DNA of 64,000 nt from positions 3,959,001 through 4,023,000 of the forward strand of contig NZ_CP119677.1 in assembly GCF_029318685.1 (NCBI RefSeq). Direction: 5' to 3'. The position numbers were made by a program, and so were the translations under genes. Below, piece after piece: positions 1 to 52,813 of this stretch. The first letter of the stretch is position 1, and each line of letters starts with the position of its first letter. Below the pieces are notes generated by a model. It saw nothing but the letters and a program-made list of their open reading frames with translations, was not told where the DNA came from and did not search any database. This DNA comes from Ruminiclostridium papyrosolvens DSM 2782. Its GTDB lineage: Bacteria; Bacillota; Clostridia; Acetivibrionales; DSM-1351.

Positions 1-3000
1 ACCATTTTTCAGTGTTTCAATTGCTCTGTGAATTGCAAGTAAGGAGCTGGAGCAGGCCGAATCACAAGGTTCGCTTTTACCTGTAGTTTCCAGTACAAAA
101 GAAATCCTGTTTGTAACCATGGAATGGGTCAGGACTGTTGGTATTTTTCTCTGTACAAGCAGTTCCCCATAATCAGCATTTGATATTCCTATAAAAATCG
201 ACGTATCTGTTCCCTTTAAATCTTTTGAGCTATAGCCTGCATCCTCCATGGCTTTCCAGGTATGTTCCAATACTAATCTTTGCTGTGGGTCCATTATAGC
301 TGCGTCGAGTGGTGATATTTTAAAGAATTTTGCATCGAAGCAATCTACATTTTCAATAAAGCCTCCTGAGTGAGTATAAATGTTATATGCTCCATATTCG
401 CTGTCGCCGTCATACTCTCTCCAGTCCCATCTGTCAGAAGGAATATCTGTAATTAAATCCCTTCCCTGACTTATGTTATCCCAGAATTCTTCAATGTCTG
501 AACTTCCCGGGAAAGCACCACTCATACCGATAATGGCATACTTGTCCGAATATTCCTTAACCTGATAATTACTTTCAGCATTTGTAAAAACCCTTGTAAA
601 ATCATAATCAGGATATGCCTGACTACTCACGCTGCTATGGCAGGTGGTTTTATAAGCCTCTTTTACATGAGTATACTTTTCCAGAATATGTTCAACAATG
701 TTGTTGACCGTATTTCTTTCGAAGAAAAGCACCGGGTTTGTATCTATATTCAATTTCTCATTTATAGCATTGGACAGCTCTGTAAATGTAATGGAATCAA
801 ACCCGTATTCTAACAAACTTGTATCCGGATCAATTTTTTTTCTCAATTTTAAAGTCTGAGCACATACATTTATTATTGTTTCAGTTATACTATTTTCTTG
901 AATAAATTCAATATTTTCTTGGTCGTCACTTTTGTTTTCAATTGAACACACATTTTCAGGCAAGGCTTTTGTGCTGACATCACCATTTACAGCCAAGATA
1001 GTGTAATTGCTAATCCGAGCCAACATTTTGCAAGCTTCACTATAATATTCTACTGTGTACTTCCACTCGGAAGGGTTTTGGGTTTTCCCTGCTTTCGCAA
1101 TAACATGAACATATTTTATAGCTGTCCCTTTTTTAAAAAATTCTATGTTTTCAGTTACAAAGGGCATATAAATCGTCTCAGCATTTGCTCCCATTTTATA
1201 TGCAAGTGCAACAACACTTTGAAATCCCGCATCCAGTAAGGTTGGATGGTAATTAAAATCTTTTCTTGTTGCGTCTAAAACATCGACTATACCTGCTTCG
1301 GCAAATGCCTCTTTATCTCTGAAAAAGAAGGCTTTTATTCCTTTGAATCTATAACCAAAACAAGAATTCAGCCGTTCCAAATGGTTGTAGTATTCCTCTG
1401 CCTCGTGTTTTCCGCCAGTCATGCTGCTAATACAATCCGCAACCTTCAACTGCTTGTCCGGAAATCCTGTTTTCTTACCTAATACAATATTGCACTGAGC
1501 ATAAACAATTTCACATGGCACATCGCTGAATACTTGTGCAGAAACTGTTTCACGCTGCAGCATAAAACGAACCTTTAAAACTCTTTTTTCTGCTCTTACA
1601 ACAAAGGGTCTCATAAGTACCAAGTTTTTAATACCAATTAAATTATGACCTTTACTTGAGGCCATAATGCCTTGATAAATCATTTCTATGTATGCCACTG
1701 CGGGTAAAATTCCAAGGTGGTCTTTAATAAAAAATTCTTCCCCTGTAAACAGTTTTGAAAAACAAACATTGCCTAAAGTTGATATATTTGCATCAATCAG
1801 ACTGGAAATTTTCCCTGCATTATCTTGGATACTTACAATATTTTCTGTTTTATCTGTAATCCAGTAGCGTTCTTTCTCAAACTCATAACAAGGTAAATCA
1901 ACTTTTTTGAACTGACTATTTTCCCCGTATAATTCATTCCAATTAATGTAAGCTCCGATAGTCCATAAATAAGCCAGTTTCTTAATGTCTTTCTCTTGAT
2001 ATATGGCATTAATAAAAGCTTTTCCCGCCTTGCCGCTATATAAATTTTTATCGAAATTATTTAGTTTAAGCTCCTTATTATCATAAACCCCATCAATTAT
2101 TTTTCCTTGACAATATTCTTTTATCTGTTCTTTTAATTCAGAAATAGAATTACATACAAAGGATACCTTACTGCTGAAACATTCTCTTTTTAGCATAAGC
2201 ATCATACTGGTATCATATAATGATGCCTCAGGATTCTTATCCAGCCAATTTGAGAATTCAACCAAATACAGCTTTAGTGATATTTCAGATTTTGCGGATA
2301 TGTTTATTATATAAGGGCCTTCCGTATAATTGTGCAGTGTATCTGCTGAGTATTCCTCTATAATTGCAGATGCATAAGAGCCTCCTGCACTGATTGAATT
2401 AATCAGTACCCTTCTGGCAGTATCCCCTTTTTCAAAGTCTTTTGCTTCTGAAGTAATAAAAAACGGTGAATTTTTAATATCTATTTCAGGATTAATTTTA
2501 TCTGCTAGCAAAGTAGGAACAATTTTGTTATGTTTAAACTGCAATAATGACTTAATTACTGCAATTAGACCTGATGCTGATTCCAAATGTCCTATATATG
2601 GCTTAACAGAACCAATTGCACAACTTCCTTTTTGGATATTATTCTTTTTAAATGCACTGTTTATTGCCCTGAATTCTATTGGGTCACCGATGGTGCTGCC
2701 TGTTGTTCCCATCTCTATGTAATCTATAGTATTAAGACCAACCTTGGCTTCACCTGCTACTTTTTCAATAAGTTCTTCTTGCAGTTCCGAGCTTGGGGCA
2801 AAAAAAGTAATTGTTTGCCCTGAATGATTGATGGCAGTACCTTTAATAACCCCGTATATCTTGTCATCATCTTCTTGTGCTTTTTCCAGAGGTTTAATTA
2901 AAATGGTTGCAACGCCTTCACCGGGAATAAATCCATCTGAATCCTCTCCAAGAAAAGCATATTCATTATTAGAGGAAAGCAGCCTTAATTTACTTGCTCC

Positions 3001-5988
3001 TATATAAGAGGTTGGATGGCTGTACAGATTTACACCACCAACAACAGCTATACTGCTTTCACCATTTATTATGCTTTTACAAGCCAGATGCAATGCAGTC
3101 ATGGATGAGGAGCAGCCTGTATCAACAGGTAGGCTTGGGCCACTGAAATCATAAACATGTGATATTCTGTTTGCAAAAGCCCATTGCCATGAGGATGGTA
3201 TTGTGTAATTCCCTTTATTCCATTCACTTACGGCACTTAATGCATATGAGTGGTTGGTTGCACCAATAAATACACCAACCCCCGGCTGACTGTGTTTCCT
3301 GTATTTTCTTTTCAGTTCACCTCTGGTATATCCGGCATCTTCTAATAACCGCCATACGGATTCCAATAGTATTCTTTCTTGAGGGTCCATTATTTCAGCT
3401 TCTTTTGGTGAAATATTGAAAAACATTGCATCAAAACAATCTGCGTCTTCCAGAAATGCTCCATATTTACAATACGATTTTCCATAAACAGTATCATTTA
3501 TATTTGAGCTATAAATTTTATCATGATCCCATTTTGTTTTGGGAACCTCGGTAATTGACACCTTTTTATTAATAATGTTATTCCAGAATTCCCTTACGTC
3601 TTTGGCGCCGGATACTCTTAAATCTACACCGATTATAGCAATATCTCCATTGGGGGTCAGAACTTTACTCAACAGCTCTTCTTTTTTTATTTTTATAGGC
3701 TCTGCCTTCTTTTGCGTCTGTTTTACATTAGTTGTACTCTTAACGGAATTAATTTGATTCTCTATCATATAATTGGTTAACTCTGACAAGTTGTTTTTTT
3801 CATACATAATTGTTTTAGGCAAACTGATTCCATCTTCTTCAAAACAAGTATGCAGCTTTTCAACTAATATTGAGTCTAAACCCACCTCGGTAAATGAGGT
3901 ATCATCCGACAGGCTGTTCTTATCAATTCCCGTTACCCTGCAAAATGTATTTTCCAAGTAATTTCGTATTCTCTGATATTCATTTTGTTTATTACTCTGT
4001 TTACCAAACTTTTTATCTATAAAGCTTCTGTGATTCTCTATAATATAATTACTTAAGTCCCTATTTGTTTTCTTTTCATAAAGAATTGTTGAAGGTAAAC
4101 TAAGAGAATCGCTTTCGAAATAATTAGTAAGCCTTTCAATCATAATAGAATCTAACCCAAATTCATCAAAAGAACAATCCTCTGACAGTGTTTCAACGTC
4201 AATTCCGGCTACTTCCGTCAGAGCTTTTGAAATATACTTGCTAACTATGTCATAAAGCTCACCGTCACAATTATCTTGTACCGAATAAGCATCCTCTGTA
4301 ATAGCATCATCTTCTTCATTATTTAGCGGTAAAAGCGTCTCTTCAATTGCTTCTTGTTTATCACAAAGGGGAGCAAGCATTTTCTCAATCCGATTATTAT
4401 GTCCATATAATATAATACTTCTGGGGATTTTATTTTCTATTATGGTGTCTATTACCAACAGCGCTGTAGAGGTTAACAATGGAGCCATTCCCGTCGCGTT
4501 TATCATTAATTGGACTCTGTCATCATCAACCTGCATTCCTCCGTCTTTCCAAAGGGGCCAATTGACAGAATAAACTTGAGTACCTACACCATTTTGGGCT
4601 TCCAACTCCGCATAATTGTCAAGAAAAGCATTTGCAAAGCCATAATCACTTTGTCCCATATTTCCGGTAACAGAGGCCAGTGATGAAAACAGCATAACAA
4701 AATCAACGTCCAGTTTCTTGGCAGCATTGATAATATTGATCGTTCCTTTTATTTTAGGTTCCAGTACTTTTATTACATTTTCCTGCTGTTTATTTATTGC
4801 TAAGGAGTCTTTAATAATTCCTGCAGTATGATAAATACCATTAATTATTCCATACTGCTTGTTTAAAGAGTTTAACAGCTTCGATACTTGGGATGCATTT
4901 AATATATTACATTTTTTATAAGTAACAAGCTCATCCCTGCCGTTAAAACTTTTAAGCATAGCTTCTTCTTCATTTGTCATAGCTCTTCTGCCAACCAGAA
5001 CAATGTTAGAGGCACCGCAACTAACCAAATGACTTGCAAGACTTTGTCCTATCCTGCCTAATCCACCAACTATAATATAACAGCCTCTTTGCTTTACAAT
5101 ATTGGCGGTGGTATAGTCAGGCAATACTCTTTCTATTACATTGACCTCTCTGAAACCATTGCAATAAGCTACTTCCAGATAGTCACCCATGGAGTGGAAT
5201 TCTTGTTTAATCAATGAAGCCTTTTCATTTATATCTGAAATATCTCCTATATCAATTGATTTGCACAGAACCTTGCTATTCTCAACACAATAATTTTTAA
5301 ACAGGCCTGATATAGAATTTAACAAAACTTTTTTCTTATCTTCTTTTGTTGAATAAATGTATTGAATATTTATTTCCTGAACATTTTTTAGCTTAGAGAG
5401 CACTTTTATTAATATATATACTTGCTCTATAAGCCCCTCTAAAGCTTGGGATATTTGTTCACTTGAGTTTTGCAGTTCTAAATTTGAGTTGTCAATTACA
5501 ACCGATAATATTGAATCACCATACTGTCTTACTTTTTCCGTTATTCTTTCGCAAGACTCACTTGAAATATCCATTTCACAATTTATCAAATAAACATTGT
5601 CCCCTGATTGACCAGCTAACGCTTCTCCTAATTGCTGTTGGAGTGAAAAACATATTATGGTCCCTAAAGAGCTTTTCTTCTCTTTTTCAATATCTTTTTT
5701 TAACCATTTAGGAGTATATACGGCTAAACTGCAATTGTCGTTTTTCTGTATTAGCTTTAAACTTTGAACAAGAGTATCTCCGGATATCTCTTTATTATTA
5801 TATAATTGAACAAGTTTCTTCTTGTCTGTAATTAAAGTATCCTTAATAAACTGTACTGTTTTTGAATTCTGGCTTGCATTGCCGGATAAGTCATTTTCAA
5901 AATCAATGAAACCGTTTAATACATCGATATCTCCATTATCCTTATTAAGCAAGTCTCTTACAATTTGATCCAAATATGCCTGTTCCAT
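1..5988 (-). CDS. trans-AT PKS, KR-ACP-ACP-KS0-DH-ACP-KS (3' part off the window)
   Basis: The gene is open to the left edge; 1996 codons are visible. It starts at ATG 5986-5988 behind a strong AAGGAGGA site. Domains in order are: a short helical N-terminus; KR (NADPH loop GGLGRIG near 306, catalytic S and YxxxN near 440-460, IIKD marking a B-type KR); two tandem ACPs (GLDSI near 611 and 704); KS (active Cys near 959 in TGCSSS); DH (about 1400-1640); ACP (GFDSI near 1733); and a second KS that reaches its SACSSS Cys near 1979 at the edge. There is no AT, as in trans-AT systems. In the first KS the EAHGTGT motif reads EMGTTGS, so the catalytic His is Gly1094; such KS0 domains pass the chain on without elongating it. 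The DH keeps its His and the LLDAGFQ Asp but has a shortened His-to-Pro loop (DHLGILP). By gene order this is the last PKS subunit seen. Confidence 0.93.
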   Translation of the reverse strand, partial: MEQAYLDQIVRDLLNKDNGDIDVLNGFIDFENDLSGNASQNSKTVQFIKDTLITDKKKLVQLYNNKEISGDTLVQSLKLIQKNDNCSLAVYTPKWLKKDIEKEKKSSLGTIICFSLQQQLGEALAGQSGDNVYLINCEMDISSESCERITEKVRQYGDSILSVVIDNSNLELQNSSEQISQALEGLIEQVYILIKVLSKLKNVQEINIQYIYSTKEDKKKVLLNSISGLFKNYCVENSKVLCKSIDIGDISDINEKASLIKQEFHSMGDYLEVAYCNGFREVNVIERVLPDYTTANIVKQRGCYIIVGGLGRIGQSLASHLVSCGASNIVLVGRRAMTNEEEAMLKSFNGRDELVTYKKCNILNASQVSKLLNSLNKQYGIINGIYHTAGIIKDSLAINKQQENVIKVLEPKIKGTINIINAAKKLDVDFVMLFSSLASVTGNMGQSDYGFANAFLDNYAELEAQNGVGTQVYSVNWPLWKDGGMQVDDDRVQLMINATGMAPLLTSTALLVIDTIIENKIPRSIILYGHNNRIEKMLAPLCDKQEAIEETLLPLNNEEDDAITEDAYSVQDNCDGELYDIVSKYISKALTEVAGIDVETLSEDCSFDEFGLDSIMIERLTNYFESDSLSLPSTILYEKKTNRDLSNYIIENHRSFIDKKFGKQSNKQNEYQRIRNYLENTFCRVTGIDKNSLSDDTSFTEVGLDSILVEKLHTCFEEDGISLPKTIMYEKNNLSELTNYMIENQINSVKSTTNVKQTQKKAEPIKIKKEELLSKVLTPNGDIAIIGVDLRVSGAKDVREFWNNIINKKVSITEVPKTKWDHDKIYSSNINDTVYGKSYCKYGAFLEDADCFDAMFFNISPKEAEIMDPQERILLESVWRLLEDAGYTRGELKRKYRKHSQPGVGVFIGATNHSYALSAVSEWNKGNYTIPSSWQWAFANRISHVYDFSGPSLPVDTGCSSSMTALHLACKSIINGESSIAVVGGVNLYSHPTSYIGASKLRLLSSNNEYAFLGEDSDGFIPGEGVATILIKPLEKAQEDDDKIYGVIKGTAINHSGQTITFFAPSSELQEELIEKVAGEAKVGLNTIDYIEMGTTGSTIGDPIEFRAINSAFKKNNIQKGSCAIGSVKPYIGHLESASGLIAVIKSLLQFKHNKIVPTLLADKINPEIDIKNSPFFITSEAKDFEKGDTARRVLINSISAGGSYASAIIEEYSADTLHNYTEGPYIINISAKSEISLKLYLVEFSNWLDKNPEASLYDTSMMLMLKRECFSSKVSFVCNSISELKEQIKEYCQGKIIDGVYDNKELKLNNFDKNLYSGKAGKAFINAIYQEKDIKKLAYLWTIGAYINWNELYGENSQFKKVDLPCYEFEKERYWITDKTENIVSIQDNAGKISSLIDANISTLGNVCFSKLFTGEEFFIKDHLGILPAVAYIEMIYQGIMASSKGHNLIGIKNLVLMRPFVVRAEKRVLKVRFMLQRETVSAQVFSDVPCEIVYAQCNIVLGKKTGFPDKQLKVADCISSMTGGKHEAEEYYNHLERLNSCFGYRFKGIKAFFFRDKEAFAEAGIVDVLDATRKDFNYHPTLLDAGFQSVVALAYKMGANAETIYMPFVTENIEFFKKGTAIKYVHVIAKAGKTQNPSEWKYTVEYYSEACKMLARISNYTILAVNGDVSTKALPENVCSIENKSDDQENIEFIQENSITETIINVCAQTLKLRKKIDPDTSLLEYGFDSITFTELSNAINEKLNIDTNPVLFFERNTVNNIVEHILEKYTHVKEAYKTTCHSSVSSQAYPDYDFTRVFTNAESNYQVKEYSDKYAIIGMSGAFPGSSDIEEFWDNISQGRDLITDIPSDRWDWREYDGDSEYGAYNIYTHSGGFIENVDCFDAKFFKISPLDAAIMDPQQRLVLEHTWKAMEDAGYSSKDLKGTDTSIFIGISNADYGELLVQRKIPTVLTHSMVTNRISFVLETTGKSEPCDSACSSSLLAIHRAIETLKNG

Positions 5989-6099: not shown

Positions 6100-6864
6100 C
6101 TATATCATTCTCTTTATTATTTCATCAGACAGCTCCAGAAAACTGGTATTACAAATACTGTTTTTCTTTAGCTGAAAGGTTGTTACATAGTTTAGTGCCG
6201 CTTGATTGATATGTGTATTATGAGGGATTCTTGTTTTAAAAAGTGTATCTCCTATATTCTGTTCCAGACTGGCGACAATTTTTTTTGAGGTATTTGTTCT
6301 GTTATCAATATTATTTATGAGTATACCTAATTCTTTAATATTGGGATTGGTTTTCTTTATATCAATTACAAATCTACGTGTCAGGTTAATACCCTTCACA
6401 CTATCAATACTTGGAACTGCCGGAATTATGTAATAATCACTGGCTATCATTGCAGATACAAATAAATAATCTAGCACAGGATGCGTATCCATAATGATAT
6501 AATCATATTTTTTACCTATTTCCCCCAGCCGCTCCTTTAGTATGTATAATCTTTTGCTTGTCCCTCTTTGCTCTAATACTCTTCCTATTTCACCAATATT
6601 AATTTGGGATGGGATGATGTCCACATTAGGTATTCCTGATTGATGTATACATTGTTCAGTATTAATGTCATTGTCTGTTAAAAGTTGATATACTGAATTG
6701 CGTTGCTGTCCATTACTTGAACGATCAGATAAATTACCCTGCATATCTAAATCAATCATTAAAATTTTCTTACCTTTTATGGATAATGCATGAGATAAAT
6801 TATGCACAATTGTAGTTTTGCCTACACCGCCTTTAATATTAGCAATACAAATAGTTTTCGTCAT
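6100..6864 (-). CDS. ParA/MinD-family ATPase within the PKS operon
   Basis: This is a 254-residue ParA-type (SIMIBI class) ATPase. The deviant Walker A motif KGGVGKTT has both signature lysines (K11 and K16). It is followed by MIDLDMQGN (A'/switch I) and YIIMDTHP (Walker B/switch II). The length fits small, single-domain ParA proteins without an N-terminal DNA-binding extension. ParA ATPases bind nonspecific DNA as ATP dimers and position plasmids, chromosomes, chemoreceptor arrays or carboxysomes with a partner protein. No ParB- or McdB-like partner is recognisable in the window. The gene sits between two PKS genes on the same strand, 21 bases after one stop and 111 bases before the next start, so cotranscription is likely. 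A role in placing the PKS complex in the cell is inference. Other ParA-like roles are possible. Confidence 0.9.
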   Translation of the reverse strand: MTKTICIANIKGGVGKTTIVHNLSHALSIKGKKILMIDLDMQGNLSDRSSNGQQRNSVYQLLTDNDINTEQCIHQSGIPNVDIIPSQINIGEIGRVLEQRGTSKRLYILKERLGEIGKKYDYIIMDTHPVLDYLFVSAMIASDYYIIPAVPSIDSVKGINLTRRFVIDIKKTNPNIKELGILINNIDNRTNTSKKIVASLEQNIGDTLFKTRIPHNTHINQAALNYVTTFQLKKNSICNTSFLELSDEIIKRMI

Positions 6865-6885: not shown

Positions 6886-9800
6886 TTACTTAATGTTCGT
6901 TTTATCTATGGTCTCAATCTTTTCAATGATACGGGCTATATCGCCCTCATCACTGGCAAGCTCTTGAAGAATCACTTCTAAATCATCCTCAGCAGCAGCT
7001 TTTACTTCCGGCCGAACTGGAATGGTCTTGTTTATTGTCTTGACCCAGCAGGACTTTTGTGCAAAAGGATAGGTTGGTAAATCAACAAGGTCAGGCACCA
7101 ATCGTCTAGTCTCATACCAACTGATTTTGTTTCCCTGCACCCACGCTTCTGCCATGCTGCGAGCCGTTTCCATATCTTCTATTGCAGTTCTTGAGATTTC
7201 TTTTCCTCTATTCTTTTTTACGATACCGCTAAAGAAATTCCGGCTATCCTTATGGTTTAAATAATCACTCATTAATTTGATAAAACCATCAAGGGTTTTT
7301 GTTAGAAATGCCGCACGGTATTCCATTTCATTACGACATCTCTGAAGAGTGTATGCAACAGCTGAAAGCTTTAAATTGCTTTTGTTATTACTAATATACT
7401 GATACATTAAATTCACGTATATCCCTAATTGAGCCTGTGTCTTTGCTGAAATGGGAAGTATATATACCTGCTCCGTATCTTCATTATAAATAGATTTTTT
7501 ATCTTCTTTATATTCCTGTACCAATATATGCCCATTTGCACCGCCCGCTCCAAAGGAGCTGACACCGGCAGTCCTTAAACACTCCTTTTGTACACCTTGG
7601 TCTGTAATAAGCGGTTTATTCCATTTCTCAAGTGTTCTTTGAACATAGAATGGTGAATTGTCAAAGTCAATCACAGGAGAAAGCTTATCAGAGTACAATG
7701 AAGGTACTAATGCTTTGTGCTTCATTTGTAACAAAACCTTTATAAGTCCTACAATACCGGCAGCGCCTTCCGAATGTCCAATATTTGTTTTAATAGAGCC
7801 TAAGGAACAAAACTGATTTTCTGATGTGGTTCTTCTAAAGGCTTTGCTTAATGCATTTACTTCAATTGGATCCCCAATTGGTGTACCTGTTCCATGAGCC
7901 TCAATATAGCTGATTTCTTTTGCTGATATTCCGGCCTTCTTAATGGCGTTGCTTATTAAAAGCTCTTGTGCTTTTGGGTTAGGAGCCATATAGCCGTTTG
8001 AATCTGCATCATGATTAATTTCACTTGCCTTAATAACTCCATAGATTCTATCATTATCCCGCTTCGCAGCTTTTAAAGGCTTTAGCAGCACGCAGGCCAC
8101 ACTTTCACCCGGTACAAATCCATCTGCTTTGTCACTGAATGCATAACATTTACCCGTTTTTGACAGCATTTTTACTTGGCTTAAGGATACGTATTTATAG
8201 GGGTGCAAATACATATTTGCTCCTCCGACCAATGCCATTTTACACTCATTATTTTTCAAAGAACTAATTGCCTGATGTATAGCAACAAGCCCGCCTGCAC
8301 AAGCAGCGTCCACTGTATAGCTTGGTGCCGAAAACTTCATAAAATATGAAATTCTGTTTGATAATGACCAAGGCAAGCTATTGGGAACAACATAATTGCC
8401 TTTTCCCCATTGCTCTATTCCAATAAGATTGTAGGTATTGGAGGCAGTTGACATAAATGTTCCTACTAATGCATTACCATTTTCATCACCAAATTTCTTT
8501 AATCGTTCATGGGTATATCCTGCATCTTCAAACACTTCCCACGCCACCTCCAGCATCAACCGTTCCTGAGGGTCAGTCATTGCAGCTTCTATAGGTGACA
8601 TATTAAAAAACTGTGGATCAAATTTATCTGCATCTGCTAGAAATCCACCCCATTTACAATAGCTTTTACCTTCAGGTAAATTCTTTATCTCACTGCTGTA
8701 ATAGTAGTCCACATCCCAGCGTTCTTTTGGTATTTCCCCCACACAGTCAACTCCGTTTTTCAAAACTTCCCACAGTTCTTCACAATTTGAAGCCTTGGGG
8801 AAACGTCCGCTAATACCAATAACGGCAATATCATCACATGGCTCCTGAACCTTCTCAACTATCCTTTCGGTTGGTTTTTCGATGACATACGCATTAACTT
8901 TTACAGGTGGAACAGCCGGCATACTTACACACAAAATTTTCTCTAATTTATCCGACATTGTTTCTAATAAATAATCAGCTATTTCATTAATGTTTTTTGT
9001 CTCATATAATAAAGTTTTTTTAACAGGACCTAATTGTTTTTCTATTCTTAACATAACCCTGTTAAATCCTACTGAATCAATTCCTAGTTCGCCAAATCCG
9101 GTACCTGTATCAAAGTCACTTATACCAAAGGTGTCTTTAAATATTTTGATAAGCCACTCATTTGTTTTACTTTTCAAATCCGGTGTACTATAATCAGCCG
9201 ACACTGCATTATCAGTAAATTCAGTAATTTGAGCCTTTTCCAGCACCTCTCTGAGTTTTTTTTGCACTCCATATAAAACTGTGTATGAACCGGATTTTGC
9301 ATTTAACAGCTTGTTAAAAGCTTCAACCCCAAATTTGTTTGTCAGAGGTACTGCCCCTAATTGCTCATACAATACATCAATTTCATAATCATCTATGGCC
9401 ATCCCGCCTTCACTCCAATAGGGCCAGTTGATACATATTGTCTTCCCCTTGCATACCCCATCTGTGCGCAGCCCTTCCCTGTAAGCAGCAAAGTTGTCCA
9501 GAAAACAATTTGCGTAAGCATAATCTGCTTGTCCTATTTTCCCAAGCACACCTGCTATAGATGAAAATGTAATAAAGAAATCTAAATTTTCATTAATAAA
9601 CTCTTCATGCAGTGCAATTGTTCCGTTGATTTTAGGAGATAGCACATCAAAAATATCATTTTCTTTTTTATTAATTATGAAGGAGTTATTAAAAACACCG
9701 GAGCAATTAATTATTCCCCTGATATCATATCCATTGTTTTTAATAGAGTTATGAACTGTTTTTACTTCTTTACTTACAGCAATGTCAGCCCTGTAATACT

Positions 9801-10692
9801 GTATTTTACTTGCATTTTGCCCAAACCATTCCTTCAACTGACTGTCAGCTACCTCAGAGCGACCTGTTATTATAACTTTACCTGCCCCATTCTCAAATAA
9901 GGACTTCACAATCTCTCTTCCGATTACACCATGCCCGCCACTGACAATATAAGCATCTTTTGCGCTAAAAGAGATTTGTTCATTATCCTCAAATTTCTTG
10001 AGAAAATTAAACCGCTTGACCATTCTTCCATTTTTATTATATGTAACTTCAAATTCTTTCGAAAAATCTGACGCTTCACTCTCGATTATCTTGTCAATGC
10101 CGGAAAAAGCTTGGTTAGCTTCCTCAATACAAACTGTTCTCAAAATAACATTCTGCATTTCTTCAAAAGCAGTTTTTGCAAAACCCTTTAGCGCCTTGTG
10201 AAAGCAGCTGTTTAATTCCCTGTTTTCATACACCCATAAGCACAAGAGGGAAGAATTTTGCTTTGCTGCTGCTACGGCTTTTACTATATTATAAGCTTTT
10301 AAGATAGTATCAGAATTGCCATTACTACTATGTACTATAATTGTATCTATCTCTATATTTCTCTTATTTAAATCCTCAAATAGGTGCTTGTAATGTTGAG
10401 GATTTTTAAAATCAATTAATGCTTCTTTATTCTCACTAAATTTGTATGCAGATGAGTTTCTGACATATACGTTGCAGGGATATTTATAGTGTTGTACCTC
10501 TTCAGCAAATGCAAGTACTCCTTTTGGTTTCCGATTCTGTATTGACGGAGAAGGCACCCAGCTTTCTTGAAAATAATTCAAGTTCAAACCTATACTGTAA
10601 TTGCAATTGGATAAATAATTGTATACATTTAATGCTGAATTTTCGCCGGATGACAGTTGACTTAAATATTCTTTTAAATTAATGTTTTCCAT
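6886..10692 (-). CDS. trans-AT PKS, KR-ACP-KS
   Basis: The protein is 1268 residues. The N-terminus (about 1-35) is a short helical segment that may receive the previous subunit. A KR follows (structural half from about 60; GGHGVIG near 255; S near 377 and YAYAN near 392), then an ACP (GIDSV, Ser near 537) and a KS (about 620-1050; Cys near 798 in DAACAGG; intact EAHGTGT near 934 and NIGHSEG). The KR reads VFNN where B-type enzymes have an Asp, suggesting the A-type stereochemical class. After the KS there is only the usual KS-flanking region ending in a short acidic helix, EDDLEVILQELASDEG, a likely C-terminal docking element. The KR-ACP presumably completes the module begun by the KS at the end of the preceding subunit. 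The ATG at 10690-10692 has GAGGG inside the end of the upstream gene, only 2 bases away, so translation is probably coupled. Confidence 0.92.
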   Translation of the reverse strand: MENINLKEYLSQLSSGENSALNVYNYLSNCNYSIGLNLNYFQESWVPSPSIQNRKPKGVLAFAEEVQHYKYPCNVYVRNSSAYKFSENKEALIDFKNPQHYKHLFEDLNKRNIEIDTIIVHSSNGNSDTILKAYNIVKAVAAAKQNSSLLCLWVYENRELNSCFHKALKGFAKTAFEEMQNVILRTVCIEEANQAFSGIDKIIESEASDFSKEFEVTYNKNGRMVKRFNFLKKFEDNEQISFSAKDAYIVSGGHGVIGREIVKSLFENGAGKVIITGRSEVADSQLKEWFGQNASKIQYYRADIAVSKEVKTVHNSIKNNGYDIRGIINCSGVFNNSFIINKKENDIFDVLSPKINGTIALHEEFINENLDFFITFSSIAGVLGKIGQADYAYANCFLDNFAAYREGLRTDGVCKGKTICINWPYWSEGGMAIDDYEIDVLYEQLGAVPLTNKFGVEAFNKLLNAKSGSYTVLYGVQKKLREVLEKAQITEFTDNAVSADYSTPDLKSKTNEWLIKIFKDTFGISDFDTGTGFGELGIDSVGFNRVMLRIEKQLGPVKKTLLYETKNINEIADYLLETMSDKLEKILCVSMPAVPPVKVNAYVIEKPTERIVEKVQEPCDDIAVIGISGRFPKASNCEELWEVLKNGVDCVGEIPKERWDVDYYYSSEIKNLPEGKSYCKWGGFLADADKFDPQFFNMSPIEAAMTDPQERLMLEVAWEVFEDAGYTHERLKKFGDENGNALVGTFMSTASNTYNLIGIEQWGKGNYVVPNSLPWSLSNRISYFMKFSAPSYTVDAACAGGLVAIHQAISSLKNNECKMALVGGANMYLHPYKYVSLSQVKMLSKTGKCYAFSDKADGFVPGESVACVLLKPLKAAKRDNDRIYGVIKASEINHDADSNGYMAPNPKAQELLISNAIKKAGISAKEISYIEAHGTGTPIGDPIEVNALSKAFRRTTSENQFCSLGSIKTNIGHSEGAAGIVGLIKVLLQMKHKALVPSLYSDKLSPVIDFDNSPFYVQRTLEKWNKPLITDQGVQKECLRTAGVSSFGAGGANGHILVQEYKEDKKSIYNEDTEQVYILPISAKTQAQLGIYVNLMYQYISNNKSNLKLSAVAYTLQRCRNEMEYRAAFLTKTLDGFIKLMSDYLNHKDSRNFFSGIVKKNRGKEISRTAIEDMETARSMAEAWVQGNKISWYETRRLVPDLVDLPTYPFAQKSCWVKTINKTIPVRPEVKAAAEDDLEVILQELASDEGDIARIIEKIETIDKTNIK

Positions 10693-10694
10693 AA

Positions 10695-13600
10695 TTAATT
10701 CCCTCTTTCTAAAAAGCCTATTGCGCTATTAACTGTCATGGTTCCGCTTTCTACCTTCTTAATTATTTCATATAAATTTAATTCATCGCTATTTTCCTTC
10801 TCCTCATAAATCCCTTTATTATGGCTGATAGCAAGTTGTGCCGATGGAATTTGTTCGCCGGAAAATGGGTACGTTGGAAGGGACATCCTCCTTCTGCCTT
10901 TAGTATTACTCAGCTTCTCCCACTCCAAATCTATTCCTTCAACCCATAATTGTCCGATATTATTTAAATCACCACTATCTATCAGTGCTTTTATAAAATT
11001 AACACCTGCATTTCCTTTAAACATTGACAGTAAAGTACTTTCCTCTCCCTTGCTTTGCTTCAATATAATATTTTCATGGTTTTGGTTTTGAAGAAACATT
11101 TTCAAATATACAAGCAGTTCTTCTGTCGTAGAGGCAATTACAGCTAATCTTTTTTTCATATGCACACGGCCTGTCTGTAAAGTATACTCATAAGAATCCA
11201 AGAACTCAGCTTCTTCCTCTTGAGATAGTTCACTCTTTGCTTTAACCTCACAAACCGTTTCATTACAATCATTTTTAGTTTTTAATAATTGTCTCAGCTC
11301 GCTGATGGATTTACATACGGCAAATTGTTCAACTGACGGTGATTTTAACCTGTTTCGTTTCAACAATTCCTCTAACTTTACCATTTTATATAAATCAAAA
11401 TTTAATTCATCAAGTAAATAAGTACAAAGCAGCTCATTGTTGTTAAATCCAAAGAAATCTATAATTATATTATCTAAGTCAGCCAAATCTATATTCTCAG
11501 TCGGAATATCATTATAGCTGCTGTACTGACTTAAAAAATCAATATGCTTCTTAACATAATTTAATAAGATATCCTGATTATATGCTGAAAATACAAATAA
11601 CTTAGGGCTAACGCCTCTTACCTTACTCCGGCTTGGCTCATATTCTTGGATTATAATATTGGCATTAGAGCCTCCTGCTCCAAAAGCACTGATTGCCGCT
11701 GCTCTTAATCCGTCAGAATTCCAATTTTCATACTCTTGCTGACAATAAAATGCTGTTCCCTTGAAGTCTATGTTTGGATTTATCTTTTTAGAGTGAAGAC
11801 TTGGAACTATTTTTTTATACTTCATCTGAAGTAATACCTTGATTATTCCGGCAATACCTGCTGCAGCTTCTAAATGTCCGATATTAGATTTAATCGAACC
11901 TATGGAGCAAAACTGCTTCTCATTTGTATACTTATCAAATACGCTTTGCAAAGCCCTTATTTCTATTGGGTCGCCTAAAGCTGTGCCTGTTCCGTGAGCT
12001 TCTATATATGAAATATCCGAAGGCAAAACTTTTGAAGCTTTTATAGCACGTTCTATTACCTTGCTCTGATATTGCACACTCGGAACACTGTAGCCTCCCG
12101 TTCTTCCTCCATGGTTTATCTCACAGGCTTTAATAACTCCATAAATATGGTCGCCATTTTCTACTGCCTTGTCTAATTTTTTCAGGAGTAATGCCCCAAC
12201 CCCTTCACCCGGTACATAGCCCGAGCCATTCTCACCAAAAGAACGGCATCTGCCATCTTTTGAAGTAAAATTGTTTTGTGCTAATACTATATATTTTGCA
12301 GGATGAATAGATAAATTTACTCCCCCTGCAATAGCCATTTCTGCCTCATTATTATTAATACTGTCACATGCCATTTTTACTGCCGTCATAGCTGAGGAGC
12401 ACATTGTATCAATAGAAAGGCTTGGGCCGTGCCAATTAAAGTAATAGGACACCCTGTTTGCAATGGATGCAAAAATTGACGAGGGCAATGCAGGCTGATT
12501 ATCCAGCAAGGTACTGAACATTTGGTACTGCCCCCACATTGTTCCTACATATACACCTATATCTTTATTCACTAATTGCTTCATGGAATAACCCGCATCT
12601 TCTAGGGTTGTCCATACAATTGATAAAAACAGCCTTTCTTGGGGGTCCATCATTTTGGCTTCCGAGGGTGTGATATGAAATAGTCTTGAATCGAACCTGT
12701 CAATTTCTTTAAGAAAACCTCCATAATTACTTACATCCAATGTACTATCCTCGCCTATTATGGCTTTAATATCTTCCCTCGTCCAACGTTCTTCCGGCAC
12801 TGTCTGAATACAGTCTTTTCCGCTCTTTAGGTTTTCCCACAACTCCATAACATTACCTGCCATGGGAAATTGACCGCCAATTCCGATAATGGCAATATTT
12901 TTTGACTGTGAATATGCTTCTGACATGCTCTTTCTCTGCTGCACATGATTTTTATCGGTTATCTTATAATGCTTTGTCATAAAGGAATTGATTTTAGCTT
13001 TAACGCCATTTAATATAATTAGCTGTGACGAATTATCATAATTTGCACAGAGCAATAAATCAATACCCCTATTGTGATTCATCTTTTGTATTCCGGTTGC
13101 ATTATAAATGTGACTATAATCATATCCAACATCCATCCCGTCCAATTCCCACAAGGGCCAGTTAATGGAAAGTGTCCTTCCATAACGCAGCTTCTTATGA
13201 GCCAGTTCGTTTCTCATAGATGAAAAGTTGTCCATATACCCATTACCATAAGCGTAATTTGACTGCCCCAGATTTCCAAAAACAGCGGATATTGAAGAAA
13301 ACAATATCATATAATCAATTTTTTCTTCACCAATTGCACTGTCTAAATTATTGATACCTGCTACTTTAGTAGTAATAGCCGGTTCCTCTGCTTCAGCCGA
13401 GAACTTTTTGGACATGATAATAGCATCTTGTAGGCAGCCTGCTGCATGTATGATGCCGTTTATCTTTCCATGTTCTGCTAATGTCCATCGGACTTCCTTA
13501 TCAACTGCCTGTTTATTACAGATATCTGCACTATGGTACACCACTTTTGCTTTACCGCTATTAACCCTTTGAAGCCATATGTCCATTTCATTTGTTATAC

Positions 13601-15665
13601 TGCTTCTTCCAAGTAAGATGATATTACATGCATACTGCTTATATATTGCGTTAACTAAGCTTTTTCCAATTGCCCCCATACCACCAGTGATAATATATGT
13701 TCCATTGTCTTTAAAAAGGACATTCGTGCTCTCCTTATATTCCGTCAAACACAGTTCCTTGACATGTCTCACATAATCCCGATATTTTATTTCATTTACA
13801 GGAAGCTTTTGTTTAGAAAACTCATTAATTATAAGCTTCCATACAAGTTGACTGCTATATAGTTTCTTATCATATTCCAATGTAATAATACTTGAAGTAA
13901 TCCTCGTTTTTTCTGCCGCCAAACACTTATAAAAGCCAGTCAATGCCGAAGTATAGCAATTATTTGCGTTATCGTGAAAACCAATATTAACAATTCTGAT
14001 TTTACTGTTAGCATCGGCAAACTTAATCAAGGCTTGGCAAAACAATGCATTAAAAATATACACTACTTGCTCCGAGTAATTAGAAACAAGCTCATTTAAG
14101 CAGTCAAAATCAAACATATTGACCACATTAACATTTGCATTTTCAGGTACTGTCTTTGAAAATACTTGCTCTATTTCTTCCTTATTCAGAGGATTTATAC
14201 AGTAGCTATTGTTATCGTCAATCTCCTTGCACATTTTATTTGAACATATATGTATTACATTTCTAAGCTGTTCTTTAGCCTTCTTGTAGACCTCTGAGTC
14301 ATTTGTTAAAATTATGGTTAAAGACGGACCATACTCCCCACTTTGTTCTTTTTCTTCAATATCTTCCTTCCAATATGCTTCAAAAATGACATTTTCATCA
14401 TTCTGATTATTTAATTTATCAGCAGTAACTTTAACCTTTTCCCTCTTTTGATTAGGTGGAGGGGTCTGATTTTGTGTAAGATAAATGTTAAATTGTTCAC
14501 TGAACTGACCTTTTAAATATTCACTTAACTCCTTTATATTAGAGTATTCAAACATAATTGTAGGGTAAAGCTGTATATTTATTTGATTTTCAATATTTTT
14601 AACTACTGAAATAAGATCCCTTGAATCAAGTCCCAGTTCATAAAAGCCTTTTTCTAAATCTGATTCCTGTATAATGATTTTTTTTAAGTCTTCTATTTTT
14701 TTAATGATATATTTTTCAATGCTATTCTCTGTTAATGATAATTTTTCAAGCCCCAACTTCGGAGCTTCCTGTTCATCAGAGTTTATCTCTTGGGTGGAAG
14801 TAACCTGTTTCGTTGCCATACCTACTTCCCGAATCTGCTTTGATGACAATCTTTCAATATCAGCAGCTAATTGGCCTTGTTCGTCGAAGATTTTCCAGCT
14901 GGCACTTGTAACATCACCGCTATTGGCTACAGACACATCTTTATTTTCAATATAAACATATGCTTCACTGTAAAGTGGTTTAAATGCCCTGAATTTTTCT
15001 ATATGTATTGGTATAAAAGCTTTATTTTCAACTTCGCTTATTTTGTTATCTCTAATACATAAATAGGGTATTATGGTTGATGAATCCATAATGGAAGGCT
15101 GATGAAAAAAACCGTCCTTATATTGATTTGCTTCCTGACTCAGTTTGCTGTGAGTAATTATTTTATCTTTAAAGCAATAAACTTTGCCTTCCGCCTTCAT
15201 AAAAGATTTATGAGTAATTCCAACATTTCTCACAAACTTATATGCTTCATCCATATCCTGAATATACTCAGCCGATTTAGTCAGTTGCTCTGATATATTT
15301 ATCTGCTCCCGGGCAGTTGGAGATACTTGACAAATTTCACATTCAAAATGCTCCACCATTTCATCTGTATTATTTTGCTCTATATCTGCAATATGACTTT
15401 TACCTGTGATAAAGCTTTTTTGCCCAATATTTTTCAAACTTATTACTAACTCTCTTTTATTAGATGTTAAAAGTTCAATTGGTGTTTTAAAGAGAATATT
15501 TCGGAATTCTATTGTTTTGTAATCAATGTTCTCAGACAATAATACTTTAATACACAAATCTAATAATACAATTCCCGGCATTACTTTAGCACCATGTACA
15601 ATATGGTCTCTTACAACCAAGTTATTCTCGTCTATTATGAGGGAATACCCAAATTCTTTAAACAA
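10695..15665 (-). CDS. trans-AT PKS, DH-ACP-KR-KS with a LINKS-like insertion
   Basis: The protein is 1656 residues. It begins almost at once with a DH: H21 in DHIVHGAKVMPG matches HxxxGxxxxP, and the partner Asp lies near 194 in HQPSIMDSS, although the Gln of DxxxQ is replaced. An ACP follows (GLDSR near 347), then a complete KR (GGMGAIG near 662; S and YAYGN at 788-812; CLQD, B-type), then a KS (TMCSSA Cys near 1090; EAHGTGT near 1221; NIGHLEA). The KR lies after the ACP, an order known in some trans-AT modules. After the KS, residues about 1385-1465 form a helical, ACP-like insertion typical of LINKS elements. The C-terminus (LYEIIKKVESGTMTVNSAIG) looks like a docking helix pair. Translation starts at TTG 15663-15665 behind GGGAGGTG; no better ATG exists upstream. 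Confidence 0.92.
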   Translation of the reverse strand: MFKEFGYSLIIDENNLVVRDHIVHGAKVMPGIVLLDLCIKVLLSENIDYKTIEFRNILFKTPIELLTSNKRELVISLKNIGQKSFITGKSHIADIEQNNTDEMVEHFECEICQVSPTAREQINISEQLTKSAEYIQDMDEAYKFVRNVGITHKSFMKAEGKVYCFKDKIITHSKLSQEANQYKDGFFHQPSIMDSSTIIPYLCIRDNKISEVENKAFIPIHIEKFRAFKPLYSEAYVYIENKDVSVANSGDVTSASWKIFDEQGQLAADIERLSSKQIREVGMATKQVTSTQEINSDEQEAPKLGLEKLSLTENSIEKYIIKKIEDLKKIIIQESDLEKGFYELGLDSRDLISVVKNIENQINIQLYPTIMFEYSNIKELSEYLKGQFSEQFNIYLTQNQTPPPNQKREKVKVTADKLNNQNDENVIFEAYWKEDIEEKEQSGEYGPSLTIILTNDSEVYKKAKEQLRNVIHICSNKMCKEIDDNNSYCINPLNKEEIEQVFSKTVPENANVNVVNMFDFDCLNELVSNYSEQVVYIFNALFCQALIKFADANSKIRIVNIGFHDNANNCYTSALTGFYKCLAAEKTRITSSIITLEYDKKLYSSQLVWKLIINEFSKQKLPVNEIKYRDYVRHVKELCLTEYKESTNVLFKDNGTYIITGGMGAIGKSLVNAIYKQYACNIILLGRSSITNEMDIWLQRVNSGKAKVVYHSADICNKQAVDKEVRWTLAEHGKINGIIHAAGCLQDAIIMSKKFSAEAEEPAITTKVAGINNLDSAIGEEKIDYMILFSSISAVFGNLGQSNYAYGNGYMDNFSSMRNELAHKKLRYGRTLSINWPLWELDGMDVGYDYSHIYNATGIQKMNHNRGIDLLLCANYDNSSQLIILNGVKAKINSFMTKHYKITDKNHVQQRKSMSEAYSQSKNIAIIGIGGQFPMAGNVMELWENLKSGKDCIQTVPEERWTREDIKAIIGEDSTLDVSNYGGFLKEIDRFDSRLFHITPSEAKMMDPQERLFLSIVWTTLEDAGYSMKQLVNKDIGVYVGTMWGQYQMFSTLLDNQPALPSSIFASIANRVSYYFNWHGPSLSIDTMCSSAMTAVKMACDSINNNEAEMAIAGGVNLSIHPAKYIVLAQNNFTSKDGRCRSFGENGSGYVPGEGVGALLLKKLDKAVENGDHIYGVIKACEINHGGRTGGYSVPSVQYQSKVIERAIKASKVLPSDISYIEAHGTGTALGDPIEIRALQSVFDKYTNEKQFCSIGSIKSNIGHLEAAAGIAGIIKVLLQMKYKKIVPSLHSKKINPNIDFKGTAFYCQQEYENWNSDGLRAAAISAFGAGGSNANIIIQEYEPSRSKVRGVSPKLFVFSAYNQDILLNYVKKHIDFLSQYSSYNDIPTENIDLADLDNIIIDFFGFNNNELLCTYLLDELNFDLYKMVKLEELLKRNRLKSPSVEQFAVCKSISELRQLLKTKNDCNETVCEVKAKSELSQEEEAEFLDSYEYTLQTGRVHMKKRLAVIASTTEELLVYLKMFLQNQNHENIILKQSKGEESTLLSMFKGNAGVNFIKALIDSGDLNNIGQLWVEGIDLEWEKLSNTKGRRRMSLPTYPFSGEQIPSAQLAISHNKGIYEEKENSDELNLYEIIKKVESGTMTVNSAIGFLERGN
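11275..11510 (-). other. LINKS-like insertion in the KS-flanking subdomain
   Basis: Within the KS-flanking region, about 80 extra residues (including FFGFNNNELL, NFDLYKMVKLEELLKRN and SISELRQLL) separate the SPKLFVFSAYNQD strand from the YTLQTGR helix. The pattern resembles a degenerate carrier-protein helix bundle without a phosphopantetheine Ser. That is how LINKS domains (lateral KS-KS contacts in the bacillaene synthase) look. The other KS domains here whose flanking region is visible run straight through this point. The assignment is by pattern only. Confidence 0.5.
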
Positions 15666-15695: not shown

Positions 15696-18600
15696 TTAAA
15701 ACATCTTTTTTAATCCAAACATATTTGCCTCACTATTTGTATTAATTATTGTTGTAGAAGTCGGCTCTTTTTTATCAAACCAATAATATTTTTTATTTAA
15801 GGCTAATGGCGGCAAAGGTTGTCTTATGACTTCATGATGTCCTGTGTATTCTGATAAAATAACATGGGCGTTGGTTCCGCCAAAGCCGAAACTGCTTATT
15901 CCTGCAATTCGTCTTCCGTTTATTCCTTCCCATTCTTTATTCTTTGTACAAGGAAAGAATGGGGATTGTTCAAAATTAAATCTTGAATTAGGCTTGTCAC
16001 AGTTCAAGGTCTTTGGTAACTTTTTATTCTGCAAGCATAATACAACCTTAATTATGGAGGCCATACCCGCTGCACTTAAGCAATGCCCTATATTTGTTTT
16101 TACGCTGCCGATACCGCAGTAGTTCTTTTTATCTGTATATTCTCTAAAAACACTTGTTAATGCTTTTAATTCAATGGGATCCCCAATAAACGTTCCTGTT
16201 CCATGTGCTTCTATGTAACTAATATACTCAGGAGCAATATCTGTTCTCTCGATTGCCCGTTTAATAACATCCATCTGCATGTTGTAATTTGGTGTTGTAA
16301 TTCCCATGGTATGTCCATCATTGTTTATTGCAACAGACTCTACAACTGCCAAAATATTATCACCGTCAGCTATTGCTTGTTCAAGCTTCTTAATTACAAT
16401 AGTTCCACAGCCTTCTCCCGGTACAAAACCGTTTGCTTTCTCATCAAAAGCACTGCAAACACCGGTAGGAGAAAGAGCATCACTGAGTAAAACCAATGTG
16501 TTCTCACACAATATTAAATCAACGCCTCCTATAATTGCCTGTTCACATTCACCAAAATGTATATTTTTACAGGCTTCACTTAAAGCAACCATAGAAGATG
16601 AACATGCTGTATCAATTACCATAGAAGGGCCCTTCAAGTCTAAATAATGGGAGGTGTAAGCAGCTATGAAATTTTGTCCTAGCCCTGTTATTTTTGCTTT
16701 TTGCTCCTTTGGCATCAAGGAATGAAAATCCCCTACTCTGCTTCCTATAAATACCCCTATGTTCTTACCTTTTACATCAGCCTTGTCATAGCCCGCATTT
16801 CTAAGTGCATTCACACTAGTCTCAAGTTGTATGCGTATCAAAGGGTCCATTGTCGCCGCTTCAGTTTCCGGGATTTCAAAAGCCTTAGGATCAAAGTATT
16901 CAATATCCTTTACCATGGCAGCCCATTTTCCTATTGATTTATTTACTTCCGGCGTAGGTGAATAAAAAGGCTCCATGTCAAAACGCTCTTTTGGTATTTC
17001 TTTTACACTGCACTTCTCTTCCATCAAATTATTCCAGAACTCAATACAATTGTCAGCGTCAGGAAAGCGACAATCCGCTCCTATAACAGCAAATCTGGGA
17101 TTTTCATTTACCCCGCATGGTTTTATTTCAATGCTCTCCTTTTTTGGAAGAGAAATATTAACAATACCTGTTAACGCAGTACTGATTTTTCTGATTGTAT
17201 TGCATTCAAAGAACAATACAGGGTCTATTGCCGTATGAAGCTTTTCTTCCAATTTTTTTATTACTTCACCTAAGAAAATAGAGTCCATTCCATAATTTTC
17301 AAAGGCTTCATCTAAAGATATTTCATTTATATTAATAAGTAATACATCTGAAATCACCTGTGTTATTATTTCGGTAATTACATTTACTTCTGAAGACAAC
17401 CTTTTATTATCTACAGTTTGCTGAGTAAAATCTGACGCCGGTTTATTCTTTGATAAAACTGCCAGCTTTTCAATTTCAAAAACTTCATTATGTTTTACAG
17501 GTACAACAACTCCCGATACTTCCTTTTGTAAGATATTAAACAGAATATCTATACCTTCCTTGCAGTTAATTGGAATCAGGCCATTTTCTTTGCCAATCTT
17601 TGGTTCTGACACCATAAAGCCAACATCTGACCAGCTTTGCCAAACCACAGACAAAACTTGAGAATCGGTAATGTTTTTCCCATATTCAGGCATACCATTC
17701 AGATAGTTATTTGCCATGGTATAATCACTTACCCCTTTTGAAAGCCAAGGGCAAATGGAAGATATGGAAGAAAATAATACGGTTTTCTCCACCTGTAACA
17801 CCTTTGTTGCTTCTAACATATTGAGCAGTCCAATTACTTTTGGCTCTAAAACATCCTCAATTTCTCGCTCTTCTTTGTGGATAAAGGCAGCATTTTCCGT
17901 TGAATATCTGCCTGCACAGTGGAACATAATGTGTGCTTCACCAAACTGCTGATACACCTGTTTAAAAAAGTCCTCCAGTGCAGTTTTGTTATGTAAGCCT
18001 TGGGAATACACCAGCACTTCTGTACCATGGGACTCTAAGTCCTTGAGCAGTTCCTTCTTTTCAGGTGTATTCATATCGCTTCTTCCTAACAATACAAGCT
18101 TCTTTGCACCGAGTTCTGCCAGACGTGATGCTATCTTTGCACCTATCCCTCTGGTACCTCCGGTAATAATGTAACACTTGTCCTTCTCTACTTTGAAGGC
18201 ATTGTCACTTTTCCAATTAAACTCTAACTGCTGATATCCTGTTGTATTTCTTATGCCTGCTTTATAAAAAACTTCACCATTGCCATCAAAGGTAATTTCG
18301 TTTTTCAAACAATTAAGTATTGAATCCATTGTATAGTCAATTGTAAAATCAATAGTTTTACTTTGAATCCAAGGGTATTCTGCACCTAAACTCTTCATCA
18401 ATCCCGCCGTAAGAACACCATTTTGTGTAATGCCTTCATTTACGCCCTGTGTGCAATGAAGGATATCCAGACCTGCTTGTCTTGTTTTCTTTATAAGATG
18501 TTTATACAAATTAAATTTGCTATGAGGTATTTTAAATATTTCTTTACTTCCTGTTTGCAAATCAGATAAATCAATGACTACTGTTTTATTTTTCTGCTTT

Positions 18601-34653: not shown

Positions 34654-34697
34654 ATCTTCCACCACCTAATTTGTAATCAGTTCACTGACCTAATAAA

Positions 34698-35990: not shown

Positions 35991-36001
35991 AAAATGTCAC
36001 C

Positions 36002-37261: not shown

Positions 37262-37950
37262 CTATATTCCTCCTGTTTTATTAATCCATCCTCCATAAAG
37301 CAAACTCTTGATGCTCTGTCAACAATTTTACTGTCATGAGTAGAAAATATAAACGCAGTACCTTCTTCTTTATTTATCTTTTGCATAATATCAACAATTT
37401 CTGTACCGGTTCCTTTATCAAGATTCGCAGTTGGCTCATCAGCTAAAACGATTTGAGGTTTTGTAACTAATGCCCGGGCAATAGCGACTCTCTGACATTG
37501 ACCACCTGATAATTCATATGGTTTATGCTTTTTATACTTGTCCAAACCTACTTTTTCTACGAAATAAGCAACTCGCTCTGCTTTTTCCTTCTTTGATATG
37601 TCCTTCAATAGTGAAAGAGGCAAAGCAACATTTTCTTCTACTGATAAAACTGATAATAAATTAAATGACTGGAACACAAATCCAAATGTATAGAGACGTA
37701 ACTTATCTAATTCCTTGTCCTTTAATTTTGCTATAGATTGGCCATTAATAATTACTTCACCGGATGTCATCTGGTCCAAACATCCGATAATATTCAGCAA
37801 TGTTGACTTACCGCTTCCGGAAACACCCGATAACGCGACAAATTCTCCCTGTTTAATAGTCAAATCTAATTTTTTCAATGCATTTACTTTTGTTTTACCC
37901 AAAGAATAATCTTTGGTTAACCCTTTAATTACAACGATATCTTTACCCAT
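37258..37950 (-). CDS. ABC transporter ATP-binding protein (LolD/MacB type)
   Basis: The protein is 230 residues, the usual length for stand-alone LolD/MacB-class ATPases. It has Walker A GVSGSGKST at 42-50, a Q-loop in FVFQSFNLL, the signature LSGGQCQR, Walker B IVLADEP and the H-loop histidine in FIFSTHD. It energises the two FtsX-type permeases encoded directly after it. The ATG at 37948-37950 follows AAGGGGATTACT, a clear ribosome binding site. The gene follows the AT-enoylreductase gene by 47 bases and precedes the PKS genes, so the transporter is embedded in the biosynthetic operon rather than beside it. Confidence 0.93.
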   Translation of the reverse strand: MGKDIVVIKGLTKDYSLGKTKVNALKKLDLTIKQGEFVALSGVSGSGKSTLLNIIGCLDQMTSGEVIINGQSIAKLKDKELDKLRLYTFGFVFQSFNLLSVLSVEENVALPLSLLKDISKKEKAERVAYFVEKVGLDKYKKHKPYELSGGQCQRVAIARALVTKPQIVLADEPTANLDKGTGTEIVDIMQKINKEEGTAFIFSTHDSKIVDRASRVCFMEDGLIKQEEYR

Positions 37951-37997
37951 AGTAATCCCCTTTATCTTTTATTATTCGTACCTCAATTAAAAAAGTA

Positions 37998-40226: not shown

Positions 40227-40270
40227 TTTATCCCCCACTTTTCGTAAAAAGAAACTCTTCCTCGATATTC

Positions 40271-49159: not shown

Positions 49160-49292
49160 CTTTAGTATCCTCCCTGTTATTACTTTCACCCTTTTAAAGG
49201 CACCTTTATTTATTCTTATAAGAGAGTCTACCAATAGGTGTTCATTTTTTTATAAGACCAAATGAAAGATTAATATTATGGGACATGTTTAT

Positions 49293-52311: not shown

Positions 52312-52336
52312 ATTTACCTCTTTACCTCCGCCAATA

Positions 52337-52774: not shown

Positions 52775-52813
52775 AACTTTCCCCCACATTTGTTATTGTT
52801 TTTGAAAATTTAT

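Follow-up and report, generated by a model that had tools for sequence, protein, structure and literature searches.

A ParA-type ATPase gene within a clostridial trans-AT polyketide synthase cluster and its possible role in synthase positioning

The DNA analysed here (the window) is a stretch of 64,000 nucleotides, positions 3959001-4023000 of a single-contig genome of 5,027,861 bases. It contains a trans-AT polyketide synthase (PKS) cluster that makes up approximately 1.4% of the genome, with the following features:

1-5988, minus strand: trans-AT PKS gene downstream of the ParA gene, first catalytic domain KR (Pfam)
6100-6864, minus strand: ParA-family ATPase, 254 aa (Pfam, PHROG, motifs, predicted model)
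6886-10692, minus strand: trans-AT PKS gene upstream of the ParA gene, KR-ACP-KS-linker, ending without an ACP (split module; Pfam)
10695-15665, minus strand: further PKS gene (Pfam)
15696-22571, 22561-27267 and 27310-34665, minus strand: further PKS genes (similarity to PKS genes of genomes G027 and G002)
34698-35990 and 36002-37261, minus strand: LolC/LolE-like permeases (below NCBIfam cut-offs; same block in G027 and G002)
37258-37950, minus strand: LolD-like ATPase (below NCBIfam cut-offs; same block in G027 and G002)
37998-40274, minus strand: AT fused to a PfaD-type enoyl reductase (AT/ER; family match, counterparts in G027 and G002)
40271-40936, minus strand: metallo-beta-lactamase-fold hydrolase (MBL), SolJ-like (below cut-off; counterparts in G027 and G002)
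40944-42437, minus strand: FAD-dependent amine-oxidase/CrtI-like oxidoreductase (family matches)
42450-48149, minus strand: NRPS-PKS, C-A-T-KS-alpha/beta hydrolase (domain scan)
48203-54355, minus strand: stand-alone AT, AccA, AccD-like protein, biotin carboxylase, biotin carrier and second biotin carboxylase (family matches)

The initial annotation placed the ParA gene inside a same-strand run of trans-AT PKS genes, which our analysis confirms: the gene is separated by 21 bp from the upstream PKS gene 6886-10692 and by 111 bp from the downstream PKS gene 1-5988, both on the minus strand. The whole open reading frame of the downstream PKS encodes 2692 aa and extends beyond the window, while the upstream PKS has its best match among nine PKS-rich genomes of the order on contig C107 of G027 (44%, 794 bits). 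The MBL hydrolase at 40271-40936 is presumably of the BaeB type. Genes for AccA, an AccD-like protein, a biotin carrier and two biotin carboxylases (49293-54355) are part of the cluster and likely form a dedicated malonyl-CoA supply. Just past the low end of the window, the last PKS gene is followed by two polyprenyl synthetase-like genes and genes for an ATC_hydrolase-like protein, a methyltransferase and a ThiF protein (together L072:431-5113). Upstream of the cluster, 55008-61955 encodes a protein of 2315 aa whose start is signal-like and whose end is SLH-like, both recognized by eye.

The ParA open reading frame begins with ATG and contains no internal stops. Its product matches Pfam AAA_31 (1.9e-44, residues 2-176) and PHROG 164, named 'ParA-like partition protein' (3e-58), and its NCBIfam matches fall below the cut-offs, the best being ParA_partition with 87.6 bits against a cut-off of 180. 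The Walker A motif is KGGVGKT with both lysines (K11 and K16), and D40 of Walker A' and D126 of Walker B are also present, so that the intact ParA ATPase of the initial annotation is borne out. The nearest relatives found are the ParAs of G027 and of a further genome, G648. In an alignment of the three, K11, K16, D40, and D126 are invariant, and each carries the deviant Walker A signature KGGxxK[S/T], as K11GGVGK16T in the window ParA, the same motif in that of G027 (L007) and KGGVGKS in that of G648 (L075). A predicted model of modest quality (pLDDT only 72.9, pTM 0.79, built with three sequences) is closest to ParA 8ray (TM 0.85), followed by HpSoj, TthSoj, and McdA (6non, TM 0.79). The GC content of the gene (31.9%) lies inside the range of 19 other cluster genes measured (31.0-38.8%), so composition gives no sign of a foreign gene. 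We conclude that the gene is a real ParA, probably resident in the cluster, and, judging from its catalytic residues, most likely encodes a working small ParA-type ATPase. Three other identities were rejected: a housekeeping Soj (the genome's own ParAs at C1:6616 and C1:3285010 are only 32 and 35% identical to it), a defence gene (PADLOC gave one weak match across 39 residues), and an Fe-S/NifH-like carrier (CXXC is absent from all three ParAs).

In ParABS systems the ParB gene stands directly beside parA; here both neighbours of the ParA gene are PKS genes. In agreement with the initial annotation, a scan of proteins from the window and its two 20-kb flanks detected neither ParB nor another partition-partner family, the set being without the PKSs 15696, 22561, 27310, and L072:5970-17891, the protein 55008-61955, small open reading frames and several L073 open reading frames, and with parS outside its scope.

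Comparison with related genomes revealed a second ParA among PKS genes in G027, which belongs to another family of the same order, with 36% identity to the window ParA. Among 100 related genomes (the window's own included), G027 provided the best match outside the window genome (178.9 bits; the next was 129.4), and a profile built from the two proteins passed 1e-50 in two of 58 genomes of the order, namely these two, which match by construction. The G027 gene (L071:3179-4000, contig C70) lies 21 bp from the preceding PKS gene and overlaps the following one by 8 bp; the upstream PKS is arranged as ACP-KS-linker-DH, and the downstream PKS as KR-ACP-KS-linker-DH before it is broken off by the contig end. 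The linkage is thus conserved across two families of the order, each represented by one genome in which trans-AT PKS genes flank the ParA gene, although these are two cases only. Since the nearest ParA within the order is likewise flanked by PKS genes, the placement is more than chance. When one KS and one KR were searched by tblastn against 128 loci, many of which carry just about 1.5 kb of flank, five matched (L001, L007, L042, L071, and L072), all from the window genome or G027. The trans-AT linker domain PF22336 occurs in 23 of the 58 genomes; the ParA is present in 2/23 of these PKS-bearing genomes and 0/35 of the others, a split that is weak evidence by itself (chance 0.15), and the stronger argument is that both ParAs found lie within runs of PKS genes, the window cluster amounting to just about 1.4% of its genome. 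The PKS genes on either side of the G027 ParA are not the closest to those flanking the window ParA, so that the same insertion point cannot be shown.

The two genomes further share the gene order MBL - AT/ER - LolD - permease - permease - PKS, found in G027 on contig C446 (L147), with identities to the window of 33% (MBL), 48% (an AT-AT/ER fusion, across one AT), 58% (LolD), 31% (permease 2), 34% (permease 1), and 34% (a PKS starting like 27310-34665). Contig C105 of G027 contains a junction of genes resembling 15696 and 10695, and between these two PKS genes lies an FMN_red flavoprotein (FMN reductase) gene (L146:1185-1880), indicating that other accessory genes interrupt the PKS run too. 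The PKS encoded at L146:1894-8073 of the same contig carries at its C-terminus three copies of an LLEITDESDD-like motif, perhaps a repeated docking or interaction motif. The GC content of C70, C107, and C105 is 43.0-44.9%, that of the PKS parts of C70 and C446 is 42.6-44.2%, and G027 contigs of another PKS type have 36.8 and 37.4%. Gene order and GC content suggest that C446, C105, C107, and the ParA contig C70 probably belong to one cluster; no end overlaps join any of eight G027 contigs, C70 and C446 included, and a single cluster is therefore not proven.

A permease 1 profile (window and G027) matched 5/58 genomes, lying beside trans-AT PKS genes in G000, G027, and G002, and the exporter genes stand alone in G014 and G037, both without any PF22336 match. 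The LolCDE-like exporter block with MBL and AT/ER (window 34698-40936; L147; G002:C1:968829-977161) keeps the same gene order next to the trans-AT PKS genes of three genomes of the order. In G002, a member of the same genus, the exporter block is accompanied by a long PKS run (C1:968829-1041043), and no ParA gene is present in this cluster. The gene is therefore optional, and such a synthase can do without it; if the G027 contigs form one cluster, ParA occurs in two of three such clusters. The search for embedded ParA genes proposed by the initial annotation thus yielded a second PKS-linked case in G027, but also a related cluster that lacks the gene.

As regards a possible cargo, PMC10241942 (in part) describes that ParA cargo is inferred from the gene neighbourhood, that a partner may itself be a physical part of the cargo, and that the partner typically offers a charged, disordered N-terminal peptide. 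LINKS motifs of trans-AT KS domains are thought to group assembly lines laterally into megacomplexes (PMC11907408, in part), which makes a large PKS cargo plausible. The PKS N-termini yielded no partner motif, and the charge of 14 N-terminal stretches (not all KR-initial, and including L072_17910 and L141_4651, which are not true N-termini) displayed no feature specific to ParA-adjacent PKSs. A basic PKS N-terminus was considered as the partner on account of the downstream PKS of G027, MAKKTTKESLKR, with a charge of +2 in its first 30 residues. The corresponding value for the window PKS is -5, and charges of +2 to +5 occur in four of the six PKS proteins of the G002 cluster, which lacks ParA, so this idea was dropped.

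The occurrence of a distant relative among the PKS genes of another bacterium suggests that the ParA probably functions as part of the cluster, and a role in synthase positioning is plausible on the present analysis. We tentatively favour, with somewhat less than even confidence, a resident and optional ParA of one clostridial trans-AT PKS cluster family, which may space or split the synthase assembly over the nucleoid. By analogy with McdA, PpfA, and ParC, the ATP-bound dimer would coat the nucleoid, a synthase segment or an unrecognized cluster protein would trigger ATP hydrolysis and release of ParA, and the gradient thus formed would space or split the assembly. The intact ATPase motifs, the closeness of the model to solved ParA/Soj and McdA structures, the common strand, the 21-bp upstream gap in both genomes, the 8-bp downstream overlap in G027, the gene order shared by the two genomes and the three-member clade described below count in favour of this positioning role, and the gene would presumably be expressed with the PKS genes; the limitation to two PKS-linked members, the G002 cluster without ParA and the missing end overlap between C70 and C446 count against it. 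A broader reading, in which trans-AT PKS megacomplexes have a ParA subfamily of their own that places or partitions them over the nucleoid, a segment of the synthase acting as its partner, would amount to a positioning system for an antibiotic-type assembly line and appears rather doubtful.

Positioning over the nucleoid would require DNA binding. ParA of Helicobacter pylori (HpParA) binds DNA via K199, K227, K230, and K247, and mutation of its D41 slows hydrolysis (PMC11229316, in part). In our own mapping on the alignment, D41 corresponds to D40 of the window ParA, and the four lysines correspond to K194, H215, H218, and N235, with K233 and K234 beside N235. The window ParA has a net charge of +7, the highest of 17 ParAs compared, the other 16, trimmed to the ATPase region, ranging from -19 to +1. 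DNA binding is thus likely but altered, as far as the residues indicate, and H215 and H218 at the positions of K227 and K230 count against positioning. Histidines at two of the four lysine positions would also suit a resident cluster ATPase that does not act on the nucleoid, being instead an ATP switch in assembly, docking, delivery to the membrane or export, somewhat in the manner of BcsQ, which PMC9178275 (in part) lists as an orphan ParA encoded in a synthase operon. Consistent with such a switch, both ParA genes precede a KR-initial PKS and follow a PKS ending without an ACP, that is, a split module, and a LolCDE-like exporter is common to the related clusters. However, basic K194, K233, and K234 are kept, the net charge is high, no membrane-targeting tail is visible by eye, and another KS|KR junction of the window cluster, from 10695 to 6886, has no ParA. 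We regard the switch as unlikely, though less so than the rival readings discussed below.

Phylogenetic analysis grouped the window, G027, and G648 ParAs in one clade, separate from the Soj, plasmid, and phage ParAs included in the comparison, with an SH-aLRT of 99 in a tree of 30 rows (reduced from 85 by 62% identity) and support of 99/99 in a tree of 22 rows (after removal of 8, mostly long-branch rows), the bootstrap of which had not settled. Three motifs set the clade apart from 14 other aligned ParAs: DxDPQ is replaced by DLD[ML]Q, the DCPP, DCCP or DCMP of the others reads D.[HR]P, and the sixth position of IPRNVRL, R or K in every one of the 14, is occupied by H or A. The G648 ParA is 43% identical to that of G027 and 35% to that of the window, and the grouping of G027 with G648 (L007 and L075) received support of 92/87. 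The PKS-linked pair as its own clade was not recovered but not rejected (AU p 0.161), so that a mobile ParA lineage may have been captured twice, or once with a later escape; both fit. The separate clade for which the initial annotation proposed a test is found and stands apart from plasmid and phage ParAs, but it also holds the mobile-element-like G648 ParA, which is nearer to that of G027 than the window ParA is. This proximity, together with the lack of a PKS gene on the 6-kb ParA contig of G648, also counts against positioning. On that contig the ParA gene overlaps the gene of a 406-aa HTH_36 (helix-turn-helix) protein, with an hsdM-like gene nearby (by eye); this neighbourhood hints at a mobile-element origin for this ParA type, and a partition ATPase of a mobile element is the probable source of the cluster ParA.

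A close plasmid or phage ParA was rejected, as 1974 plasmid and 58 phage records matched, all below 60% identity. Among the records listed, the best for the window ParA were 35.0% (plasmid, 20 of 1974) and 34.2% (phage, 15 of 58); the ParAs of G027 and G648 reached 37.2% (best 12 of 40) and 35.3% (best 12 of 968), respectively. Scans of viral contigs returned distant ParAs with a best segment of at most 39%, or none, and a scan of genome contigs returned six of at most 32%. With the best six candidates per genome scored in the class, phylum, and second 391-genome samples, the best other genome of the class sample (391 genomes) had 199.8 bits against 488.8 for the window, and the phylum sample gave 2/398, the window's own included. 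Further phylum samples gave 1/12 (G648 itself), 0/40, and 0/391, the last largely repeating the class sample.

The gene could also be a mere passenger, a partition gene left behind by a plasmid or integrative element, with no role for the synthase. The HTH_36 and hsdM-like neighbours in G648, the nature of PHROG 164 as a phage ParA family and the ParA-less G002 cluster fit this reading, and since few of the 1018 phylum genomes of other searches are PKS-rich, the PKS linkage rests on two cases. Against it, no other mobile-element gene adjoins the ParA, both neighbours being PKS genes, the operon-like spacing recurs in two genomes of two families, the catalytic residues are retained at 36% identity, and the best listed plasmid and phage records are distant; a passenger is therefore improbable. 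A stabiliser or incompatibility factor acting on DNA elements rather than on the synthase, like ParI, an orphan ParA encoded on its genomic island (PMC9178275, in part), accords with the thought that clostridial PKS clusters were horizontally acquired (PMC3250452, in part), but is very improbable, given that the proteins scanned in the window and flanks include no ParB-like neighbour and that the gene lies within a PKS run and not beside transfer or replication genes.

The initial annotation knew of no described PKS-positioning ParA, and none came up in the open-licence literature searched (ParA, PKS, trans-AT, megasynthase, and positioning; broad result lists were judged by the best-listed titles and abstract starts). 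The word 'polyketide' is absent from the available text of the orphan-ParA papers PMC10241942 and PMC9178275. Little is known of how megadalton PKS assemblies are placed and inherited in cells. If the synthase-positioning reading is correct, the operon ParA would offer a single-gene handle on active synthase positioning, and a biosynthetic assembly line would join the known ParA cargoes. The PKS linkage in two families makes a single odd gene a testable association.

Among known systems, the CcelA cluster of R. cellulolyticum (PMC3250452, in part), which is probably identical to G002:C1:968829-1041043, shares the MBL-AT-AT/ER-LolD-permease-permease-PKS block with the window cluster and differs in having no ParA. 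Soj/ParA partition ATPases (8ray, HpSoj 8jmj/6iub, TthSoj 1wcv/2bej) have the fold, KGGVGKT, DxDxQ, Walker B and a length of about 255 aa in common with the window ParA, which differs from them in its lack of an adjoining ParB and in DLDMQ for DxDPQ, DTHPVLD for the usual DCPPSLG, and IPHNTHI for the usual IPRNVRL. BcsQ of cellulose synthesis is, like the window ParA, a ParA/MinD-family ATPase encoded with a synthase, but has the motif RGGVGTT (both from the available part of PMC9178275), and with the NCBIfam BcsQ model the window ParA scores only 53.3 bits, the cut-off being 157.85. McdA has the Walker A motif SGGQGKT (PMC9178275, in part) in place of KGGVGKT, and the cargo in the window would be a PKS, which is unreported as cargo in the papers found on ParAs of the McdA, PpfA, and ParC type. 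Like the window ParA, McdA of carboxysomes and PpfA and ParC of chemotaxis clusters have the ParA fold and are encoded together with the genes of large assemblies.
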